From the NCBI GenBank assembly GCA_002869145.1, contig PKTM01000020.1, forward strand, positions 1 to 64,000: 64,000 nucleotides of DNA. The letters run 5' to 3'. A program made the translations under genes and the position numbers. The first letter of the stretch is position 1. Every line of letters begins with the position of its first letter. Below, in pieces: positions 43,780-55,794 of this stretch. The DNA comes from Denitrovibrio sp. GTDB taxonomy: Bacteria; Chrysiogenota; Deferribacteres; Deferribacterales; Geovibrionaceae. A model generated the notes under the pieces. The model made no database searches, had not been told where the DNA came from, and saw only the letters and a program-made list of their open reading frames with translations.

Positions 43780-45111
43780 ATGAAGGTGTATCCCAGGCTG
43801 AAAAAGAAGGCGAAGATCATACGTTTTTTCAAGCTGACCAATGCGGTACTGCTTCTTCTTTTTATGACCTCATGTGCAACAACAAGTGACAACTTAGAAT
43901 ATAAAGAAAAGCTGCAGGAGCAGTTGGTCAGTATGCAGATAAAACAGGGGCTGACCCAAGGCGAGATCCCTTCTGATTTTGAAAAAGATATGCCCGAATC
44001 AGACATAACGCTGGCTTCAGTTATCAGGTTTTCAAAAGAGCCTACAGTGAAACAGATAGCAACAGATGTTGAAGATCTGGACTATGACGGCGGCATACTT
44101 GTCCTTCTTAAAAAAGACAGGCTGGAGACCAACCATATAGACTGCCCATACATAAGCATAGCTGAAGATAACTACCTTTCTGTTCGGCTTGAGGACGGTC
44201 TTGCGGTTGTAACAGGCTCAGAAACGGCGTATTTGCTGGATGTTGTTAAGTGCGGCATCATTTACGAGACAAGCTCTAAAGGGAAAGGCTTTTCTCTCTC
44301 TGATAAATATATGCTGGAGTTCACTCCATATGGTTTTGAGCTTTTTGACAGCAGACACACTAGAAAGCTTCAGTCTGGTAATTTTTTGGGTGCTGTGCGG
44401 ATTGGTGACATTTCCGGAAACAGCGTGATGTTTGCCAATGAAAACGGAAAGGTAGCGCTGATGAACACTGTCACAGTAAAATTCTCAGCCATTTATCCCG
44501 AGAGCATAGACATTAAAGAGGCGTATTTCGAGGACAATAACGTATACATACTGAACGCTGAAAATGAGCTTATGAGGCTTGCGGCAAATTTTGTGAGTGG
44601 TAAACTTGAGCTTGCAGAAAAGATACAGGCTAAAGAAGGCTGTTTCTTTTTGAAGAGAAACGGCAGGTTATTTTGTGACAAGTATGTTTATGGCTTGGAC
44701 ATAGCCTACAGGTCGCCTGTGGATGGTCAGCAAGGTCTTGTCAGGGATGTGCTCATCTTTCTTATTGACGAAGGTGTTGTTAATTTTGTGGATGTGGAAC
44801 GAACATATAAGAAGGCAGTACTTTTCAGAAGTTCCAGTAAGAAACTCTGTCTGAACGAAGGGCTCGCTTACTTTACCGATCTGGATGGTTCGGTGAAATA
44901 TATCAGTGCAAAAGGTGCTGAGAAGAAAGCAGCAGAAATGCCTGCGAACTGTGACCACAGATTCGACTTCGAAAAAGGAGCGCTGAAGACACCAGACGGT
45001 AGTGAAATATATAGATTTGCAGAGATAGTGAACCAGTCAGAAAAGGCTATTATGCTGAAAAGGGTTATCGATGAAGATGTCTATTATTACTTTGAGCCGC
45101 TAGTTGATTGA
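43780..45111 (+). CDS. putative lipoprotein of unknown function
   Basis: No family was recognised. From ATG at 43780 the 443-residue product has a basic N-terminus, a hydrophobic core (AVLLLLF, residues 22-28) and a lipobox-like end MTSC with Cys32. This suggests export and lipidation. The rest is beta-strand-rich with scattered paired strands, which could be a beta-propeller. AAGGA lies about 7 bp before the ATG. A longer form from TTG at 43720 also has a good ribosome-binding site (GAGAGG) and overlaps murB by 11 bp. It converges on gspN with a 12-bp stop-to-stop overlap. Confidence 0.6.
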   Translation: MKVYPRLKKKAKIIRFFKLTNAVLLLLFMTSCATTSDNLEYKEKLQEQLVSMQIKQGLTQGEIPSDFEKDMPESDITLASVIRFSKEPTVKQIATDVEDLDYDGGILVLLKKDRLETNHIDCPYISIAEDNYLSVRLEDGLAVVTGSETAYLLDVVKCGIIYETSSKGKGFSLSDKYMLEFTPYGFELFDSRHTRKLQSGNFLGAVRIGDISGNSVMFANENGKVALMNTVTVKFSAIYPESIDIKEAYFEDNNVYILNAENELMRLAANFVSGKLELAEKIQAKEGCFFLKRNGRLFCDKYVYGLDIAYRSPVDGQQGLVRDVLIFLIDEGVVNFVDVERTYKKAVLFRSSSKKLCLNEGLAYFTDLDGSVKYISAKGAEKKAAEMPANCDHRFDFEKGALKTPDGSEIYRFAEIVNQSEKAIMLKRVIDEDVYYYFEPLVD

Positions 45112-45813
45112 TGTTTGTAAATTGCTGAATCTGCCGATAATCTTCATATTTTTCTTCTGACCAAAAACGTCTGCTGTCCCGTTTATATTCACCACAGAGC
45201 TTTCCATGTTTTTATTATTTATTTTCAGAACACCTTTCAGGTCAAGGTTCATATCGTAGTTTGATGTGAGTTTGTTTATGGTTATGTCATACCCTTTTAT
45301 GGAGATTTCTGCGTTCATCTTTTCAAAAGGGAGCATACCTATAGGTGATTCCACCTCTATTTTGTCTGTGGATGCTTTTATAAGAGCAGTATTTCCCTGC
45401 GGGTTGCCTGTGCCTTCTACAGCAAGGGGTGATGATAGTAACGCCTTCCCTTTTGCGTAGGAGTTTATAATTTCAGGGCTGATCTGTGCTGTGAATTCAA
45501 CATTAGACGGTGATATCTCCGCCTCGCATGTTATAAGCCCTTTCGAACTGATAGATATGTTTCTGGTGAGCAGAGATATGGGGGAGTATGATGCAGTTAG
45601 GTCACCTACCGTCACGCCGTTAACCTCAAGATCGCTGAATTTTGTAGAGAATGGTCCAGAATCAACTAAGTCGTAGCTTATATTTATGCCGGCATCTTTT
45701 GCCGCTCTTGAAATGCCCATTTTCACGATATTTCCGTAAGGAAACATCATCCAGAAGAAGAAGATAAATAAAATAGCGAAAGCTGCGGTGCTTATCAGAA
45801 GCTTTTTCTTCAT
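45100..45813 (-). CDS. gspN: type II secretion system protein GspN
   Basis: GspN is an inner-membrane component of some type II secretion systems. The 237-residue product has one N-terminal membrane helix (about residues 5-24) and a periplasmic, beta-rich domain. It resembles the GspN form found in deltaproteobacteria-like systems, with SFPxGxIV-like MMFPYGNIVKMGI after the helix. It is last in the leftward gspGHIJKLMN operon and overlaps gspM by 4 bp. Similarity within this family is low, so the call rests partly on position. Confidence 0.8.
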   Translation of the reverse strand: MKKKLLISTAAFAILFIFFFWMMFPYGNIVKMGISRAAKDAGINISYDLVDSGPFSTKFSDLEVNGVTVGDLTASYSPISLLTRNISISSKGLITCEAEISPSNVEFTAQISPEIINSYAKGKALLSSPLAVEGTGNPQGNTALIKASTDKIEVESPIGMLPFEKMNAEISIKGYDITINKLTSNYDMNLDLKGVLKINNKNMESSVVNINGTADVFGQKKNMKIIGRFSNLQTSIN

Positions 45814-46271
45814 TGTTTTATAATATCCATTACCAGATTCAGGTACTGTTCGTCATCGAAACGTTTGCTGATTTTAATATTACTCGATACAAGATTTCCG
45901 AATCTTTCTATATTTCTAAGGAAGCTGACCATCTCGTTATAGGTCAGTCCGTCAAGGCGTATTGCTGCTGCTTCCTGAGCACATGGAACAGTTTTTGGTT
46001 TTATGCTGGTTATTTTTGAACCGAGACCTTCACGTTCAGCGTTGGTTTGAAGGAATGAAAGCAACCCTGATTTAACCTGCTGAGTTTTGTTTCCGCCAGT
46101 TGTTTTTATCTCTGCTATAAGCTTTCCAGCCTTTTCTATATTTGCTTCCACTGCTTTCAGTTCGCTTTTTGCACTGTTTATCTTTGAGTTGAAAGCGAGA
46201 TGTGTCCAGTAGAACACTAAAAAGATTGCACCGGCCGCAATGGCTATTGTCATTATTTTTTGTCTGTTCAT
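45810..46271 (-). CDS. gspM: type II secretion system protein GspM
   Basis: GspM partners GspL in the inner-membrane platform. The 153-residue product has a short cytoplasmic N-terminus and one membrane helix (about residues 8-28). A coiled-coil segment and a C-terminal ferredoxin-like domain follow (LDGLTYNEMVSFLRNIERFG is the family's best-conserved part). Its ATG overlaps the terminal TGA of the extended gspL frame (46268-46271). Both overlaps in this stretch are four bases long, supporting translational coupling. Confidence 0.83.
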   Translation of the reverse strand: MNRQKIMTIAIAAGAIFLVFYWTHLAFNSKINSAKSELKAVEANIEKAGKLIAEIKTTGGNKTQQVKSGLLSFLQTNAEREGLGSKITSIKPKTVPCAQEAAAIRLDGLTYNEMVSFLRNIERFGNLVSSNIKISKRFDDEQYLNLVMDIIKQ

Positions 46272-47260
46272 ATTTCGAACCTCACGGTAAAGCCAATGCA
46301 GTCTTCTTTCTGAACAGTGTCGACTATCTGCGCTTCTTTACCTGTTTGTGCTGTGAGCTCTTTGGTGAACTCCTCCAGAAAAGTGTAGTCAGTTGAAGTA
46401 CCCTGACAGGTGACGTTGTTGCTTTTTATCTCAAGTATGTCAGCTGTTATGTTGGAGTTATACGCTTTGCTGACAGTCTCCAGAACAAAAAGTGTCTTGT
46501 ATTTTACGTTGCCCTCTGAGGAACCGCCGGCTAAGGCAAGCAGTTTGCCATATGGGTCTTTGCTTTTTGCTGCTCAGACACTTGCATATAAACTTTCAAG
46601 AGCTGCTTTGGCATTATTTAGCTTTTCAGTATGACTTTTCATGCGGAAGTAATCCCCGGCAATGAATATAAGATAGCAAGCAATGAGCACTGCCGCAGGC
46701 AGTTTGAATCCATCTAAGGAGGTGTTTTTGTTTTTCACAAAAGGGAGCGTGAGCTTAGCGTTTGGGTTTGGTTCCCAGTCAGGCTCCACAGCTTCTGCCA
46801 CTTCATCAGTATTAGAGATCAAACCGTCTTCTATGGTGATCCCTGAACCGTCTGCCATGTATGTGAAGGTGTCCATTTTACTGTAAACTGATGCCAGAGG
46901 GGAGCTTATGTAGGACGCTTTAGCGAAAACAGTCTCATACTGATGGTAGTTTTCAGCGAATTCTGCGTTAAAGATACCTATGAGAATCTTATCATTTTTC
47001 AGAAGATAGCAGAATTTTTCACAAAGCTGCTGAGGAAAACTTCCCATAAGATAATTACCTATGAAAAGATTCAGCTTGCGCTTTGGCGCATCCGGGAACT
47101 CCATTGTGGTGTAAAAAAGCTCAGAATCAGAGAGCATAAGCACAAAGCCCGGCTTTATGTTTTTTAGCTCTTCTTCTTCCAGTTTATGCCTTCCGGCATG
47201 TGTGAGTGAATAAAACTGCGAATCTTCAAAAATCAGCAATTGTTTAATAGTAGTGTCCAT
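46268..47260 (-). CDS. gspL: type II secretion protein GspL, frame interrupted by an in-frame TGA
   Basis: GspL couples the GspE ATPase to the inner-membrane platform. Codons 1-228 give a cytoplasmic domain and a membrane helix (residues 185-204). They then meet TGA at 46576-46574. The same frame continues for 101 sense codons (AAKSKDPYGKLLALA onward, ending CIGFTVRFEI), giving the periplasmic ferredoxin-like domain, and stops at 46270-46268 in an ATGA overlap with gspM. The whole locus is thus intact except for one codon. It may be a recent nonsense mutation, a recoded TGA or a base error. The gspK overlap at the 5' end is 17 bp. Confidence 0.8.
46574..46576 (-). other. in-frame TGA within gspL
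   Basis: This codon (position 229) separates two parts of one GspL-like frame. A 6-bp stem is possible directly after it (GAGCAG with CUGCUU, loop of 26 nt, starting in the TGA itself). The loop lacks the apical GU-containing sequence expected of a bacterial SECIS, so selenocysteine is not well supported. Confidence 0.85.
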
Positions 47261-48167
47261 TAAGTCCTGCCGTAAAATTAACTACTTGCGATGATGCCCC
47301 GTCTTTTTTTACTAAGGCATGATAGTATCTCGGTTCATCGTTCAAGGTTACTTCAGTCTTTACGTAAAATAAAGAGCTTTTTACAGAAATCAAGGGGAGT
47401 ACTTTCAGATATACTTCCTCTTCCAGATAAGCAGCTTCCTGTATGTTTGAAGGATCCTTGTATTCTTTTGTTTTGCTGTAGCTTTCTATGTCCTGTGCGA
47501 CCTGTGATATTTCAGGCAGAAAAGCTTCTATGGCGAGCTTGCTAGCAAAATTTATGTTTAGTGTGTCATCAGGGGAGTATACGGTGAAGTAGTCTTTCAC
47601 TTTTGCAAACTCCTCGTAGTTGTTCATCAGTATCCGAAGCTCAAAAAGTGAGCTTAAAGGCGCGTTTTTTGTCCGGAACTCTGCCCCGTTATATTCATAC
47701 AGTGCACCCTCTTCGCCGCCGGCAGTTACTGTTGTGTCACTGTCTATGTAGTCTTTTATCACTGCACACTCCAGTGAATCAGCTTCCATCTCTGTGGCTA
47801 TGGTTTCACAGGCAGCCATATATCTGGCTGCAATAGCCTCATCTTTAGATGCAAGTCCGTTCAGGGCTATCTTCCCGCTTAGGGGTATAATATCCACAGA
47901 AACAAATCCATAGGGAACTTCCACAACAGGGATTAAAGTCCAGCTATCCATGCGGGAATCATAAATGCTGTCGTCATCTTTGAGCACTTCTACCATAGCG
48001 GAAAGTGCCGTCATGGCGTATATGTGCGCCTGATTCTCTAGGAAATCTCCAGAAGATTCCTCGATACTTTTTATACTTCTTTCGTGTATGAGCAAAACAG
48101 TGGAGGCGGCAAAGGCAATAAATATAAGGACAAAGATCAGTACCGATCCCTTTTTATTTAATTCCAT
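47244..48167 (-). CDS. gspK: type II secretion system minor pseudopilin GspK
   Basis: GspK caps the pseudopilus tip together with GspI and GspJ. The 307-residue product has a prepilin leader MELNKKG followed by SVLIFVLIFIAFAAS. It lacks the glutamate at position 5 of the mature protein, as is usual for GspK. Its large size and the helix-rich GspK domain (LNGLASKDEA, DYIDSDTT, LNINFAS) agree with the family. It overlaps gspJ by 10 bp and gspL by 17 bp. Leader cleavage would need a GspO-type peptidase, which is not in this window. Confidence 0.9.
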   Translation of the reverse strand: MELNKKGSVLIFVLIFIAFAASTVLLIHERSIKSIEESSGDFLENQAHIYAMTALSAMVEVLKDDDSIYDSRMDSWTLIPVVEVPYGFVSVDIIPLSGKIALNGLASKDEAIAARYMAACETIATEMEADSLECAVIKDYIDSDTTVTAGGEEGALYEYNGAEFRTKNAPLSSLFELRILMNNYEEFAKVKDYFTVYSPDDTLNINFASKLAIEAFLPEISQVAQDIESYSKTKEYKDPSNIQEAAYLEEEVYLKVLPLISVKSSLFYVKTEVTLNDEPRYYHALVKKDGASSQVVNFTAGLNGHYY

Positions 48168-48724
48168 TTCTCACCTTTGTAATCGGTTGTTTTGCTTAGC
48201 TGCCCGCTTCCGGCTATGAAAACAAGCGAATGTTCGTTCACATTAAAAGAGACTTTTATAATAGTGTCCATCTCGTCGAAGTCATCTGTAAACCTGTATC
48301 CGTTGTGAGCCTGTATTTTGAAATCTGAAACATTCGGCAGCAGATAAATCTTCCACTCGTACTGATGGGCGTCAGAGCTTTCCTCACGGATGAGATATCC
48401 GTTTTCCACGTAATATTTGACAACAACAGGGAAAGCCTTCTCCATTTTTATGCTGTTGTTAGTTCTTACAGAGAGAGTATCGTTATCCCCCTCTTTATTT
48501 ATATTCAGTGAATCTTTATACATCTGAAGTATGTAAGGTTTTATAACCTTCCTAGCTGAAAGCAGTAGCGAGTTGTTGTAGTAGCTTTTCTCTGTGATTG
48601 CTTTAGTGTTCAAAAGGGCATCAAGCGTTGTATACACACCTGTGAGGACTATGGCAGAAAGTGTGAGAGCTATGAGAAGCTCAAGCAGGGTAAACCCCTT
48701 CTCAGTCTCTTTCATAGTAAACAT
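48158..48724 (-). CDS. gspJ: type II secretion system minor pseudopilin GspJ
   Basis: GspJ is a minor pseudopilin. The 188-residue product has the type IV leader ending in KG, then FTLLELLIALTLSAIVL with the conserved Glu5. The C-terminal body is larger than that of GspH and GspI, as expected. ATG at 48724 is used because GGAAAG lies about 5 bp upstream; ATG at 48715 or 48742 also read in frame. It overlaps gspI and gspK, so the minor pseudopilins are tightly packed. Confidence 0.88.
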   Translation of the reverse strand: MFTMKETEKGFTLLELLIALTLSAIVLTGVYTTLDALLNTKAITEKSYYNNSLLLSARKVIKPYILQMYKDSLNINKEGDNDTLSVRTNNSIKMEKAFPVVVKYYVENGYLIREESSDAHQYEWKIYLLPNVSDFKIQAHNGYRFTDDFDEMDTIIKVSFNVNEHSLVFIAGSGQLSKTTDYKGEKWN

Positions 48725-49037
48725 AACTGCTTTCCACTCCATCGTATTCCGCTGTCAGTGTGATCTCCTCCACACCTGGAAAAAGTGTGGGCTGCTGTGA
48801 TGATTTGTAGTTTACTTCATACCCCAGTGCATTTTTGCCGTTTTCTTTAAAAACTTTGCCGGGGTAATTTATTATTTCAAGTACCCGCTGGTAGCCGGAT
48901 TCTACTACTATGGTCTTTTGAAGTGCATAAGCAGATGTGTCCACAGATATAGCAGACAGCCTGTAAACCCCAAGCATGCTTATAGAAAGAACCGCCAGTG
49001 CTATAAGCACTTCCAGAAGTGTAAACCCTTTTTTCAT
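48702..49037 (-). CDS. gspI: type II secretion system minor pseudopilin GspI
   Basis: GspI forms the pseudopilus tip complex with GspJ and GspK. The 111-residue product has a very short leader (MKKG) followed by FTLLEVLIALAVLSISMLG, with Glu5 conserved. The small C-terminal domain of about 85 residues agrees with the family. Its start overlaps gspH by 4 bp and its end overlaps gspJ. No unusual feature. Confidence 0.88.
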   Translation of the reverse strand: MKKGFTLLEVLIALAVLSISMLGVYRLSAISVDTSAYALQKTIVVESGYQRVLEIINYPGKVFKENGKNALGYEVNYKSSQQPTLFPGVEEITLTAEYDGVESSYVYYERD

Positions 49038-49456
49038 CTTCGCACCACTTTTAAAAGAGCGGGGTATGATTCGAGCTCTGTGCCATCTGAGAATTTTAGA
49101 ACGAATTGATCGAATATACCGTCAGGATAAAAATATATATTTAAAGAACCGCCGGTTCTTTCATCGTTTATGAAGGCATCCTGCAGAGTGCCCGCCGGAA
49201 GTGAAGCTTTGTCCCCATTGCTCATCTGCACTGTGTATGAACCTTTAGACAGAGTGATGAACACCTGCACGTTAAGCTCACTCGCTTCTTTTAGATGGTT
49301 TTCTATAATTTCCTGAAATAAAACTTCCGTCTTGTCTGATAGTATTGTGTTTTCAGCAAAACGCGGAGCTATGGTCATAAAACCAAGCCCCACTATAATG
49401 AGCACAATAAGGATCTCTATAAGGGTAAAACCCTTTTTTCTGTAGGTATTATTCAA
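49034..49456 (-). CDS. gspH: type II secretion system minor pseudopilin GspH
   Basis: GspH is a minor pseudopilin. The 140-residue product from TTG at 49456 has an 8-residue leader NNTYRKKG followed by [17 protein letters not shown] with Glu5. An in-frame ATG at 49510 would overlap gspG by about 60 bp and give an improbably long 26-residue leader. The TTG lies in the last codons of gspG, so its translation may depend on gspG. The C-terminal half matches the GspH beta domain only by general character. Confidence 0.85.
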
Positions 49457-49874
49457 AGCTTTTGATGTCTGCGTTAAAATCCTCGCCGCCCTCCTGACCA
49501 TCTGCGCCATAGGATATTATTTCGTAATCTCTGTCATCATCGCCAGGGCTTCTGTAAATGTATTCGTTATCCCAAGGGTCAAGCATGCTTGACTGTTCCA
49601 GATAGCCGCCTTTTTTAAAATTCTTCGGAACCGGCTGTGTATCAGATTTTTCCACAAGTGCTTTGAGCCCCTGATCTGTGGTTGGGTAAAAACCGTTTTC
49701 AAGCTTATATATTTTCAGTGCAGACTCTATAGCCTTCATGTCAAGAGTCGCTTTGGTGACTCTTGCCTCGTCAGGTTTATCAAGGAATTTTGGGACAAGA
49801 AGTGTGCCCAGTATTCCAAGTATTACAATAACAACAAGTATTTCTATAATGGTAAATCCTTTTCTGTTTCCCAC
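49449..49874 (-). CDS. gspG: type II secretion system major pseudopilin GspG
   Basis: GspG forms the pseudopilus shaft. The 141-residue product has the leader MGNRKG followed by [22 protein letters not shown], split over two blocks, with Glu5. It carries [13 protein letters not shown] and the calcium-loop region ([13 protein letters not shown] and [17 protein letters not shown]), all diagnostic. GTG at 49874 is the start, with GGAGAAG 5 bp upstream; an ATG at 49919 would make an over-long leader. It heads the leftward operon behind a good promoter. Confidence 0.94.
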
Positions 49875-49905
49875 TGTATCTTCTCCGTAAATTAATTTTA
49901 ATGCG

Positions 49906-49934
49906 ATTATATTTGACAATACAGTTTAAGACAA
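49906..49934 (-). promoter_or_regulatory. putative promoter of the gspGHIJKLMN operon
   Basis: On the minus strand TTGTCT and a perfect TATAAT are separated by 17 bp, about 30 bp before the GTG start. The rightward gsp operon starts about 120 bp away, so the two may share regulation; a rightward promoter was not clear (TTGACA at 49913-49918 has no good partner). Confidence 0.55.
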
Positions 49935-49996: not shown

Positions 49997-50428
49997 ATGA
50001 CTGATAAAAACAGGTCTGACATGCTTGCTATGGTGGTTTTGGTAGCTGCCGGTATTGTCTGGTTTATTATCCGAATGCAGCGTGGTGAGTTTTTCCCACC
50101 ATCTGCGGGGGATGTGTTTACATACATCATTTTTGCACCGCTTGCGGAGGAACTTTTTTTCAGAGGAGTCTTGCAGGATCATGTTAACGATTGGCTGAGA
50201 AAAAACGGCAGAAAGCACCTCTTTATAAAAACTCCGGTTCTTAGCAAAGGAAATATTTTCACTTCACTGGTTTTTTTGCTTGTGCATATTCCATTCTGGG
50301 GAGTGTCCCACTCCTTACTGGTGTTTTTTCCTTCCATTGCCTTTGGCTTTATATATGACAAAACAGGAAAATTAGTGTATCCTATATTTCTTCATGCAGT
50401 ATATAATGTTAATGTTTTTATTGTTTGA
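49997..50428 (+). CDS. CPBP-family glutamic intramembrane protease
   Basis: The 143-residue protein is a small member of the CPBP/Abi family, relatives of Rce1-type proteases. Conserved motifs are EELFFRG (the catalytic glutamate pair), a mid-protein His in LVHIPFWG and the C-terminal GFIYDKTGKLVYPIFLHAVYN block. Three or four membrane helices are predicted. ATG at 49997 sits 8 bp after AAGGAG. It is placed at the head of the rightward gsp operon and overlaps the earliest possible gspC start, so it may process a protein linked to secretion. Confidence 0.85.
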   Translation: MTDKNRSDMLAMVVLVAAGIVWFIIRMQRGEFFPPSAGDVFTYIIFAPLAEELFFRGVLQDHVNDWLRKNGRKHLFIKTPVLSKGNIFTSLVFLLVHIPFWGVSHSLLVFFPSIAFGFIYDKTGKLVYPIFLHAVYNVNVFIV

Positions 50429-50457
50429 AAAAATACAAATTCATGGTATCTGGTGAG

Positions 50458-51303
50458 ATGAAACTAAATAACTATATCTATTTAATATATCCGGTTCTAA
50501 TAGCATTCAGTCTGGCCTGGGCTGTTACTGGGTGGCTTTCAATGAAGACATCCGCTGACACGCCTAGCTCTTATAATCTACCTGTGAAGGCAAAAGAATC
50601 TGCGCCGGTACTCCCCGACACAGAGCTTATCCTGACTAAGAACATTTTCGGTGCTATGGTTACACAGGAGACCCTGAGTGAACCTGCTGTTTCAAATAAC
50701 GCTCCCGCTGCGGCAGCTTCCGATCCGGGTTTTGACGGAAAGCTTATAGGCACTGTAACAGGAGATGATGAATCTATAGCTGTTTTACAATATAAAGATA
50801 AGAATTATATTCTAAATCTGCTGGAAGAGAATGAAGGTCTTATGCTGGTGGAGGTAGGGTCTTTCTATGCTGTCATCACTAAAGGGGGCGAAAGATACAA
50901 GCTTCTTTTGAAAGATGAAAGCAAAAGCGGCGGACCGAAAAAATCTGCCATAAAGATAAATGAGAGCAGTGCCCCAACAACAGAAAGGCTGAAAATATCC
51001 AGAAAAGATGTTATAGAAAAACTCTCAGATGTTAACAGCGTTATCAAGTCGGTACTCATTGTTCCCTTTGAAAGAAATGGCAATTTTGAAGGCTACAGGG
51101 TGCGCAGGATGACAAACACCTCTGTCCTTAAACAGATAGGTGTACAGAGGAATGATGTTATAATGAGACTCAACGGCAAATCGCTTGAATCCCCCACGGT
51201 TTTCTTTGATGCACTGAAAAACGCGGAAAACCTAAGCGCAGTCAGCCTTGACATACTAAGATCCGGAAAGAAAATGACATTATATGTGGAGATAGAAGGA
51301 TGA
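50458..51303 (+). CDS. gspC: type II secretion system protein GspC
   Basis: GspC links the inner-membrane platform to the secretin. The 281-residue product has a short cytoplasmic start and one membrane helix (about residues 8-27). A periplasmic homology region follows (ILTKNIFGAM and DGKLIGTVTGDDESIAVLQ). A C-terminal PDZ domain (LKQIGVQRNDVIMRLNGKSL) is also present. The start is uncertain: ATG at 50458 gives a typical short N-terminus; ATG at 50443 or TTG at 50425 are possible. It overlaps gspD by 4 bp. Confidence 0.87.
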   Translation: MKLNNYIYLIYPVLIAFSLAWAVTGWLSMKTSADTPSSYNLPVKAKESAPVLPDTELILTKNIFGAMVTQETLSEPAVSNNAPAAAASDPGFDGKLIGTVTGDDESIAVLQYKDKNYILNLLEENEGLMLVEVGSFYAVITKGGERYKLLLKDESKSGGPKKSAIKINESSAPTTERLKISRKDVIEKLSDVNSVIKSVLIVPFERNGNFEGYRVRRMTNTSVLKQIGVQRNDVIMRLNGKSLESPTVFFDALKNAENLSAVSLDILRSGKKMTLYVEIEG

Positions 51304-53150
51304 AGTTTATTAAAGTTACACTAATAATGCTGATGCTGGTTTTTGCCACTTCTGCTATGGCTGCGGTTAATGTGAATTTCAGAAATATGGAGATGATAGA
51401 ATTTGTCACCTTCGTATCTGAGTTTACAGGGAAAAATTTCGTTTATGATGAAAAGGACGTGAAAGGAAATATTACCATCGAATCCTCGTCAGAGATAAAT
51501 TCCCGCGACATTATGAAGATATTCTCTTCAGCGCTACGCGCAAACGGGTTGGAGCTAGTGGACAGAGGGACATTCACTGCCATAGTCAGACAGAATGATA
51601 TTAATGATATCGATGATTCTGAGGGCACTGGTGATGAAAATGCTCTTATAACAACCGTTCTCACTGCCAGAAATTACGATGTAAAGGTTCTTGTTACTGC
51701 GCTTGCCAGAATAAAGTCAAAAACCGGATTTGTAGACGTTCTGAAAGGGCTGAACGGCGTAGTGGTTCGTGACAGGATAGAGCGTATTGCAAAGATCAAA
51801 TCACTTATGGAGAGGCTTGAGCTGAAGGCAGAAGGCTTTAACCTGAATATTGTGAAGATAGAGCACGCATCTGCGGAAAGTGTGGAAACCGCACTTAAGA
51901 AGATGTATGCCGACCTTGAGAAGAAGCTTCTTATCTCCAGCGAACCTGTTATTGTGGCTGATGCCTACTCAAACTCACTCATAATAGCCTCGGAAGCAGT
52001 CGATCTTGCAAAAATAAAATATATAATATCCCAAATAGACACAGAGACGACAGGGACACATAACGCTCCCAAGGTTTTTTATCTGAACAATGCAAATGCA
52101 GAAGATATCCAGAAAGTTCTGGATAAGCTTACCGGTGTTGAAAACTCCTCTCAGGAAAAAGGGAAAAAAGCGCCAACTACCAAATCTTCTGTGGCATATG
52201 ACAAGTCGACAAACTCCATCATAGTATTTGGCGACCCTGACCTTTACACTAAAGTGGAAGACCTTATTAAAAAGCTTGATATACCCAGACAGCAGGTCTA
52301 TGTGGAAGCACTCATTCTGGAGACAACACTGGAAAGTGGAAGCGATTTTGGTGTTGAGTGGCTTGCCGGTGCAGGCAACTCGTCAGAAGCTGGTACGGTT
52401 GGATACTTAAACTCAAGCGGGAATTTGCAGAATTTTATGTATGGAGGCACAGGCGGAGCTCCAAACCCAAATGCTTTGGCCGGAGGGTTTAACTTAGGTG
52501 TTTTAGGGAATATCGTTAACTTTAACGGACTTAATTTTCCTACTCTCGGCTTGCTTGCGAACTTTATCAAAACATCAAACGGTATAAATATTGTCTCGAA
52601 CCCTCAGCTGCTGACTCTTGACAATGAAGAGGCAGAAGTTTTCGTAGGTGAAAACAGACCTTTTGTTACCGATAACCGTGTAGATTCAAACGGCAACAAT
52701 GTTCAGTCATATGACTACAGAGATGTGGGCGTAAAACTGAAGATAGTTCCACAAATATCCTCCAACGATACAGTAACTCTTCAGATAGAGCAGGAAGTGA
52801 AAAAGGTTACCGCAAGTGCTGGTGCAGAGACTCTCCCTGTGACTCTTACAAGGTCAACAAAAACAAAAGTGAAACTTCAGGACGGGTCAATAATGGTAAT
52901 ATCCGGCTTGCTCAAGGATGATTCTGAGAAATATAACTCAGCAGTGCCTGGGTTTTCCAGAATACCTATCTTAGGCTGGCTGTTCAAAACAAAAGCCGGC
53001 AACGCAGAAAAGACAAATATGATGGTATTTATCTCTACACACATCATCCGCACAGCAGAGCAGGCGAAGGCTCTTACAGAGAAAAAACAGAAAGAATCTG
53101 CTGAGTTTAAACAAGATGTAGACCAAAGGATTAGAAAAGAATTTAAATGA
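51300..53150 (+). CDS. gspD: type II secretion system secretin GspD
   Basis: GspD multimerises into the outer-membrane channel. The 616-residue product has a signal peptide (MKFIKVTLIMLMLVFATSAMA) and the N0 domain (VNVNFRNMEMIEFVTFVSE). N1-N3 repeats follow (LKGLNGVVVRD, VADAYSNSLIIAS, VAYDKSTNSIIVFGD), then the secretin domain (VYVEALILETTLES, VPGFSRIPILGWLF). It lacks a long S-domain for a pilotin. The stop overlaps gspE by 4 bp. Signal peptide cleavage would be by LepB (58565). Confidence 0.95.
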   Translation: MKFIKVTLIMLMLVFATSAMAAVNVNFRNMEMIEFVTFVSEFTGKNFVYDEKDVKGNITIESSSEINSRDIMKIFSSALRANGLELVDRGTFTAIVRQNDINDIDDSEGTGDENALITTVLTARNYDVKVLVTALARIKSKTGFVDVLKGLNGVVVRDRIERIAKIKSLMERLELKAEGFNLNIVKIEHASAESVETALKKMYADLEKKLLISSEPVIVADAYSNSLIIASEAVDLAKIKYIISQIDTETTGTHNAPKVFYLNNANAEDIQKVLDKLTGVENSSQEKGKKAPTTKSSVAYDKSTNSIIVFGDPDLYTKVEDLIKKLDIPRQQVYVEALILETTLESGSDFGVEWLAGAGNSSEAGTVGYLNSSGNLQNFMYGGTGGAPNPNALAGGFNLGVLGNIVNFNGLNFPTLGLLANFIKTSNGINIVSNPQLLTLDNEEAEVFVGENRPFVTDNRVDSNGNNVQSYDYRDVGVKLKIVPQISSNDTVTLQIEQEVKKVTASAGAETLPVTLTRSTKTKVKLQDGSIMVISGLLKDDSEKYNSAVPGFSRIPILGWLFKTKAGNAEKTNMMVFISTHIIRTAEQAKALTEKKQKESAEFKQDVDQRIRKEFK

Positions 53151-54601
53151 TAGATTACGACAAGATTATTGAGATATATCTGAAATATCCCGACAGGGGG
53201 GATTTTGTCCCTGTGAAAGACGGAGAAGGAATCTGTCTGCTCTACGACGGGCAGGCAGGGCTTTCCAAAGCCAGACACCTTGCCTTTTCCTCCGGTTTTA
53301 AGGCTGATTTCAAACAGACTGAACGTCAGTCTATTTTAAGTGAGCTTGAAGTTCTGGAATCCGCCCGTGAAGACGAATATGAAGGGGATATGGAGGATAT
53401 GGACGATGTTTCAGACATCCTTTCTGCCTCTTATGACGATGCACCGATCATTCGACTGGTGAACCAGACCATAATTCAGGCGGCAAAAAATGGCGCTTCA
53501 GATATTCACTTTGAAGGTCTCACAGGCAAATTTGCTGTCCGTTTTCGTATAGACGGAAAACTTACAACAATAAAACATTACCCAAAAAGTCTTCAGGAAT
53601 CTGTTATAGCAAGGCTGAAGGTTATCTCCGACCTTGACGTGGCAGAGACCAGAAAGGCTCAGGACGGACGCATTAACCTGAAAATTGGAAATAGAGATGT
53701 CGATATCAGGGTTTCTACAATACCTTCTGTAACAGGCGAGAAGGCTGTTTTGAGGATACTGGAAAAATCTAAGAGCTTAGTTACCATAGAGACCACAGGA
53801 CTGCCGGAAAGCCTTGTTCCGTCTTTTCGCAAGGTAATTAAACGACCAAACGGCATCATCCTTGTGACAGGTCCAACAGGTTCAGGTAAAACAACAACTC
53901 TTTACGCTGCTCTTCAGGAGATGGTAAGTGACGACACTAACATCATGACCATCGAAGACCCTGTAGAATACCATATGGAACAGATAACTCAGGTTCAGGT
54001 GAACAAAGCCGTAGATATAACTTTCGCAGGTGCTGTAAGGTCATTTCTCAGGCAGGATCCTGACATTATACTTATAGGTGAGATACGTGACACTGAAACA
54101 GCCCATGCGGCTATTCAGGCTGCTCTCACAGGTCACCTTGTACTCTCCACTCTGCACACAAACAATGCACCAACTGCGGTTGCGAGACTTCTGGATATGG
54201 ATGTTGAACCATTCCTCCTCTCTTCCTCGCTTATTTCTGTTATCGGGCAGAGACTTGTGAGAAAACTTTGTTCTCACTGCAAACAGAAGGTCACGGCAGA
54301 AGAATATGTCAAAGACTTTTTCCGCAGTGCAGGATTTGAACTGGATGAGTATTATGTACCATCCACAGAAGGGTGCAGCTCATGCATGCATACAGGATTT
54401 GCAGGCAGAACGGGTGTTTTTGAAATGCTGAATGTGGATGACAGTCTCCGCAAACTTATAAATGAACGTGCAGATGCATCTGCCATTTCAAAAGCCGCAT
54501 CAGAAAAAGGCTATAAATCGTTAATGTACCATGGTTTTGAACTTGTCACAAAAGGGATCACATCCCCTAATGAGATTATTGCAGTAGCAGGAACAGAGTA
54601 A
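53147..54601 (+). CDS. gspE: type II secretion system ATPase GspE
   Basis: GspE is the cytoplasmic motor that drives pseudopilus assembly. The 484-residue product has a short N-terminal domain and an acidic linker. The ATPase core carries Walker A GPTGSGKTTTLYA, an Asp box (IMTIEDPVEYH), Walker B LIGEIRDTETA and a His box (LSTLHTNNA). A C-terminal four-cysteine zinc site CSHCKQKV...GCSSCMHTGF is present. The N-terminus is truncated relative to E. coli-type GspE, as in many non-enteric systems. Overlaps gspF by one base. Confidence 0.95.
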   Translation: MIDYDKIIEIYLKYPDRGDFVPVKDGEGICLLYDGQAGLSKARHLAFSSGFKADFKQTERQSILSELEVLESAREDEYEGDMEDMDDVSDILSASYDDAPIIRLVNQTIIQAAKNGASDIHFEGLTGKFAVRFRIDGKLTTIKHYPKSLQESVIARLKVISDLDVAETRKAQDGRINLKIGNRDVDIRVSTIPSVTGEKAVLRILEKSKSLVTIETTGLPESLVPSFRKVIKRPNGIILVTGPTGSGKTTTLYAALQEMVSDDTNIMTIEDPVEYHMEQITQVQVNKAVDITFAGAVRSFLRQDPDIILIGEIRDTETAHAAIQAALTGHLVLSTLHTNNAPTAVARLLDMDVEPFLLSSSLISVIGQRLVRKLCSHCKQKVTAEEYVKDFFRSAGFELDEYYVPSTEGCSSCMHTGFAGRTGVFEMLNVDDSLRKLINERADASAISKAASEKGYKSLMYHGFELVTKGITSPNEIIAVAGTE

Positions 54602-55794
54602 TGCCGGTATTTAGCTATGACGGAATAGATAAAGCTGGAAAAAGGGCAAAAGGAAGCATTGAGGCTCCCGGTAAAAATGCCGCACTGGCCAAGCTGTCCG
54701 CTGATGGGGTTCTCGTTGCAGAGATTCATCAGGCCTCTGCAAAGAAAAAGGGTGACAGGTTTTCATTTTCATTCAAAAAGAAGGGATTGCCTGATGTTTT
54801 CTTTCAGCTTTCTATTCTGCTTTCCAGCGGTATCCAGCTTACACGTGCTTTAAAGATTACTGCTGATTCTACAAAAGACATAAAACTTAAAAGATCACTT
54901 CTGGATATGGTAGAGAAGGTTAGCTCTGGTAAACGTTTTTCTGAAGCTATGATGCCTTATAAAAAGATATATACAGAGCTTTACATACATCTTATACGCA
55001 CATCTGAAAAGGTGGGAAGGCTCTCCGCTGTTTTGCTGGACATCTCCCGTTTAGAAGAAGAGAAGAGGAAAGCCGGCGAAAAGGTCACCAGTGCCATGAT
55101 ATACCCCAGTGTTGTGATGATGCTTGGTTTTGGAGTTGTGGGTTTTATGCTTACTTTTGTTGTGCCAAAGCTTGAGAGTATCTTCAAATCAGCAGGGGCA
55201 GACATTCCGAATTCTACAAAAGTACTTCTGTTCTCTGCGGACTTTCTGCAGAATTATGGCGTATTGGTTTTCTTTTTAGTGCTCATCTTTGCTGTTTTCA
55301 TGCGCAGGCTTTACAGTGCAAAAGGTAGGTTCAGGATTGGGATGGACAAGAAACTTTATAAAATAGGCTTTGTGCGTGATGTTACTGTTTCGAGAATGGC
55401 ACACGTTTTATCCTTTCAGCTGCGTGAGGGGCTTCCGCTTGTGGAGGCACTGGCAAACACTGGCGAGGGGATAGGTAATTTTTACGTGAAAGAGGCAGTG
55501 GAAGAGATCGCAGAAGGTGTTAAAGGCGGACGAAAATTTTCAGAATGTGTTACAGAGACAGGGTTATTTTCGGAGCTTTTCATTGCGGCTGTTGCTACAG
55601 GTGAAAAAAGCGGAAACCTGCCTGACCTGCTAGACAGGGTAAACACCTACTACACAAGAAAAACAGATCAGTTTACTGCCAGATTTGTATCCGTCATTGA
55701 ACCAGTTTTTATTATGTTTATCGGACTTGTTGTTGGTTTTATAGTGGTGTCTATCATGGAGCCGCTTTTTAATATTAATACTCTGGTCAAGTAA
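54601..55794 (+). CDS. gspF: type II secretion system inner-membrane protein GspF
   Basis: GspF is the polytopic platform protein that interacts with GspE and GspL. The 397-residue product has two repeated GspF domains (FFQLSILLSSGIQLTRAL and HVLSFQLREGLPLVEAL) and three membrane helices, with the second after EKSGNLPDLLDRV. ATG overlaps the gspE stop by one base. It ends the rightward operon; no terminator follows in the short gap to the secreted-protein gene. Confidence 0.95.
   Translation: MPVFSYDGIDKAGKRAKGSIEAPGKNAALAKLSADGVLVAEIHQASAKKKGDRFSFSFKKKGLPDVFFQLSILLSSGIQLTRALKITADSTKDIKLKRSLLDMVEKVSSGKRFSEAMMPYKKIYTELYIHLIRTSEKVGRLSAVLLDISRLEEEKRKAGEKVTSAMIYPSVVMMLGFGVVGFMLTFVVPKLESIFKSAGADIPNSTKVLLFSADFLQNYGVLVFFLVLIFAVFMRRLYSAKGRFRIGMDKKLYKIGFVRDVTVSRMAHVLSFQLREGLPLVEALANTGEGIGNFYVKEAVEEIAEGVKGGRKFSECVTETGLFSELFIAAVATGEKSGNLPDLLDRVNTYYTRKTDQFTARFVSVIEPVFIMFIGLVVGFIVVSIMEPLFNINTLVK

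Follow-up and report, generated by a model that had tools for sequence, protein, structure and literature searches.

A single in-frame TGA in gspL of a draft Denitrovibrio genome is probably a base error of the assembly

The TGA that interrupts gspL in this draft Denitrovibrio assembly is best explained as a consensus base error (probability about 0.73). We favour this explanation because the same assembly carries single in-frame stops in its only ligA, its only trmD and several other genes. If so, codon 229 would be a sense codon in the living cell, probably for glycine, and a normal GspL of ~330 residues would be made and would work in the type II secretion system (T2SS). Coordinates given without a contig refer to the window, which is the whole stretch of DNA analysed (64,000 nucleotides; contig PKTM01000020.1).

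The gspL gene lies on the minus strand between gspK and gspM (Table 1). Its translation runs for 228 codons, meets the TGA and continues for 101 sense codons to a terminal TGA that shares the sequence ATGA with the gspM start codon ATG. The sequence-only reading had described the frame in these terms, leaving the strand unstated, and had placed it in an otherwise intact secretion operon; translation bore out the former, and the remaining T2SS genes are all open, as the latter implies. Between 45100 and 55794 of the window the T2SS genes form two divergent groups, one G-H-I-J-K-L-M-N-like (minus strand) and one C-D-E-F (plus strand), with a CPBP-protease-like gene separating them.

Table 1. Coordinates of gspL, of the surrounding type II secretion genes and of other single in-frame stops in the genome
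Feature	Position	Strand	Remarks
gspL frame interrupted by a single in-frame TGA	46268..47260	-	no internal stop in 39 other genomes; fold match to GspL
in-frame TGA, codon 229	46574..46576	-	Gly (GGN) in most relatives
gspL codons 1-228	46577..47260	-	cytoplasmic domain, membrane helix and beginning of periplasmic helix
gspL codons 230-330	46271..46573	-	linker and ferredoxin-like periplasmic domain; conservation kept
gspM	45810..46271	-	ATGA overlap with gspL terminal stop; Pfam T2SSM E=1.2e-06
gspK, intact	47244..48167	-	Pfam T2SSK_1st above cut-off; NCBIfam T2SS_GspK E=4.2e-27, below its cut-off
putative gspN, intact	45100..45813	-	named from position alone; no Pfam match
pseudopilin genes gspJ, gspI, gspH, gspG, each open	48158..49919	-	
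divergent gspC, gspD, gspE, gspF, each open	50425..55794	+	
ligA, only copy in the genome	C14:105126-107039		one TAA near codon 41; domains confirmed
trmD, only copy in the genome	C14:80747-81439		one TAA
further single in-frame stops	C28:100409-100411, 104234-104236, 120443-120445		fit one G:C-to-T:A change
further single in-frame stops	C14:38998, 75097, 96861		fit one G:C-to-T:A change

The predicted identity of the gene as gspL was confirmed by fold, synteny and homologues. A structure model of the product was made with a residue in place of the TGA (mean pLDDT 73.6), and in it Foldseek matched the N-terminal part to the cytoplasmic domain of EpsL/GspL/PulL (4pht, 1yf5 and 5tkw, E 2e-06 to 1e-05). 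The part encoded downstream of the TGA matched the periplasmic domain of XcpY and PulL (5n7l, 6ghu and 5hl8, target TM-score 0.72-0.77), so that the earlier suggestion of a credible GspL periplasmic domain after the stop was upheld by the fold match. Coming directly after a long helix (residues 186-227) that contains the membrane segment, the stop site precedes the ferredoxin-like periplasmic domain. A product stopping at residue 228 would thus lose the periplasmic domain, as had been proposed from the sequence and as both the model and the fold search indicate. In searches of the curated T2SSL models, gspL matched neither PF05134 nor any other Pfam or NCBIfam model. Because an intact gspL homologue from the same genus also has no Pfam match, the GspL models miss this divergent clade. 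A sequence-profile search of the PDB with the gspL product retrieved no meaningful match.

We identified gspL in 40 of the 60 genomes searched, this genome included, and none of the 39 other genomes with a match has an internal stop; the TGA is private to this assembly. The nearest homologues (55-60% identity) are in two genomes of the same genus, the draft MAG Denitrovibrio sp. BM704 (G002) and a complete genome (G001; a single contig of 3,222,077 bases). The aligned relatives have glycine (GGN) nearly throughout at the stop column, the exceptions being one lysine and two histidines, and Cys, Sec or Trp was found there in none of them. The ancestral codon was therefore likely, though not certainly, Gly; its exact form is uncertain because the seven codons around the TGA align poorly with both genus relatives (~7-9 of 21 nucleotides identical, ungapped), an unusual divergence. 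Window positions 46550-46600 can also be aligned with 6 nucleotides lost and sequence gained in frame about a displaced AGV motif (ASV in this genome); a small rearrangement that keeps the frame is possible near the TGA. Compensating frameshifts around the stop were rejected, as the other two frames have no relative-like sequence when inspected by eye.

Compared with the genus relatives, the part of gspL after the TGA is 58-59% identical and the part before it 56-63%, and private changes in the post-TGA part occur in similar numbers on this branch and on the sister branch. Judged from this conservation, the sequence after the TGA is real coding sequence with no hint of relaxed constraint. Because it is conserved like the part before the stop, the frame is either still translated or ceased to be so only very recently.

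Single in-frame stops are found in other genes of this genome. We compared syntenic blocks, namely the whole of contig C28 (155 kb) and 120 kb of contig C14, with both genus relatives. In these ~275 kb, 9 of ~155 genes had a full-length frame broken by just one in-frame stop, and frameshift-like breaks were nearly absent. The reverse test in the complete genus relative gave no such stop in 93 genes (Fisher p = 0.013). TGA, TAA and TAG are all represented among the nine, which are gspL, ligA, trmD, recC-like, kinase/phosphoglycerate-mutase-like, DMT-type permease and PBP-like genes and two others; names besides gspL, ligA and trmD were assigned by sequence look. Two further stops, C14:49306 (close to the gene end) and C14:93377 (in an unaligned column), were excluded from the nine. 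The BM704 draft MAG, unlike the complete genome, has several single in-frame stops too, and many of these are a TAA or TAG in place of Glu or Ser.

Most bacteria cannot do without NAD-dependent DNA ligase and TrmD, and the genome in which both genes are interrupted, ligA at C14:106937 and trmD at C14:81058, is rated 99.4% complete. It is hard to see how living cells could truly carry the ligA and trmD stops, and the interruption of the only ligA and the only trmD therefore points strongly to base errors in the assembly. The trmD frame of this genome, like that on contig C13 of the BM704 MAG, is ~430-440 codons long, ~200 longer than the family model, which suggests a fusion with a C-terminal domain.

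The nine stops also share a substitution pattern. Relatives have Gly, Glu/Asp or Ser at all nine sites, each of which becomes a stop by one G:C-to-T:A change. Codon usage predicts that 34% of random nonsense changes would be of this type, and the chance of nine out of nine is ~6e-5, the statistical tests reported here having been picked after the data were seen. Among private radical single-step missense changes, G:C-to-T:A accounted for 10 of 18 in this genome, compared with 2 of 14 in one relative and 1 of 8 in the other (3 of 22 together; p = 0.006). This excess is clear only with a stronger radical-change cut-off and invisible with another missense filter. G-to-T change is a recognised signature of guanine oxidation, some of which takes place outside the cell (PMC12390751), and oxidised guanine may be the cause of the G:C-to-T:A bias here.

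We infer that the gspL stop is an error of the same kind as the other single stops. The private nature of the stop and the normal constraint on the post-stop half count in favour of a base error, and an excess of internal stops has been reported as a marker of base miscalls and of a poor-quality assembly (PMC11017572). Against it, the assembly comes in just 29 contigs, a number that gives no hint of very low coverage. A literature search on MAG polishing with premature stops returned no match. Mutation, read-through and base error had been left unranked in the sequence-only reading; the stops in ligA, trmD and other genes now favour base error, while sense codons in the relatives and the failure to find a SECIS element speak against recoding.

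The main rival to a base error is a real nonsense mutation that arose very recently in the strain or the sampled population; it would cut GspL at residue 228 and impair or abolish the T2SS. We consider this distinctly less likely, but it deserves to be taken seriously. The stop is private to this genome and constraint after it is intact, as would be expected of a very young change. Type II secretion is in general dispensable, and phage pressure can lead to its loss; a spontaneous phage-resistant Ralstonia mutant combined a gspL lesion with a defective T2SS (PMC9765573). Because gspL is generally non-essential, its stop could be true even if the other stops are errors. However, impossible stops are frequent in this assembly, the gspL stop has the same apparent G:C-to-T:A change, and the open T2SS genes around it give no sign of a decaying system. 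Were the stop true, it would mean no more than that one strain had lost type II secretion, an ordinary event. A functional split, with the periplasmic half made from an internal start like separate PilM and PilN, is barely credible. Although the counterpart of GspL in the related type IV pilus system consists of two proteins (PMC9765573), no ATG, GTG or TTG follows the stop in frame until a GTG 97 codons downstream, nearly at the end of the gene, and a separate downstream half would have neither a membrane helix nor an export signal.

Recoding would instead yield a full-length GspL, with one selenocysteine if the TGA is decoded in that way. The sequence-only reading had allowed for this if the cell makes selenoproteins, and the search that it proposed found adjacent selA and selB, selC (tRNA-Sec, UCA) and selD, which contains its own in-frame TGA. 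Because this machinery is complete, the selenoprotein claim needed testing. The selD gene (C10:39378-40295) has its TGA near the N-terminus, followed by a good SECIS-like hairpin (GGGUCC-GGC-GGACC), and is probably itself a selenoprotein gene, judged from these features. Under a published bSECIS model with a cut-off of -7.5 kcal/mol (PMC13188914), this control from the same genome passed (-9.7 kcal/mol, GGC loop, 17 nt from the UGA), in a test that 17% of random coding positions also pass. The best gspL hairpin reached only -6.1 kcal/mol, in keeping with the earlier remark that a convincing SECIS is lacking, and Rfam gave no match near the site. Homologues with Cys exist for nearly all selenoprotein families (PMC13188914), but Cys and Sec are absent from the gspL column in the aligned relatives, and the site is a predicted structural linker, not a redox site. 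Selenocysteine can also not account for the TAA and TAG that break other genes likewise. The SECIS test and the missing Cys homologues led us to reject selenocysteine in GspL, which we regard as highly improbable.

Reassignment of UGA, or general read-through of it, as Gly or Trp has even less to recommend it. Each of the four TGA sites among the nine has Gly in at least one relative, which resembles UGA read as Gly; however, TGA normally terminates many genes here, including gspL itself and gspL of the relatives. TAA and TAG occur likewise at Glu and Ser, and Gly to TGA needs just a one-step G-to-T change, without recoding. Read-through as Trp, one of the earlier proposals, found no support, as no relative has Trp at this position, the tRNA-Trp has a CCA anticodon, and the sole UCA tRNA found among the tRNA genes typed (most, but not all) is the tRNA-Sec, selC. 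Tests of recoding by aligning relatives at the codon, also proposed earlier, returned ordinary sense codons. The tRNA content and the use of TGA as a terminator led us to reject Trp or Gly reassignment. It is equally far-fetched that a few percent of genes, including ligA and trmD, truly carry stops that a general mechanism reads through to give, among other products, full-length GspL; of all these readings only such read-through would be important, and nothing supports it. Selenocysteine, reassignment and split-gene function are very unlikely even when taken jointly.

With a base error as the preferred explanation, the gspL stop is an ordinary finding, and its use is as a warning for other single-stop observations in this genome. 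Neither recoding nor gene loss should be concluded from a single in-frame stop here before the reads have been checked, however tempting the complete selenocysteine system may make such a conclusion.

This gspL shares with GspL, PulL, XcpY and EpsL of known type II secretion systems the K-L-M gene order, a cytoplasmic domain, a single membrane helix and a ferredoxin-like periplasmic domain. It differs from them in that its frame is broken by a TGA and that it is too divergent for the Pfam and NCBIfam GspL models. With bacterial selenoproteins, such as SelD of this genome, it has in common an in-frame UGA in a host with the selenocysteine machinery. Unlike them, it has no Cys homologue and no acceptable SECIS, and GspL is not a redox protein. 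It also resembles spurious pseudogenes that arise from base miscalls in bacterial assemblies (PMC11017572), where single internal stops likewise lie in conserved genes that are intact in other respects and exceed both the frameshifts and the stops of a related complete genome. Those cases were diagnosed by reassembly, whereas the diagnosis here comes from essential genes and the substitution pattern.
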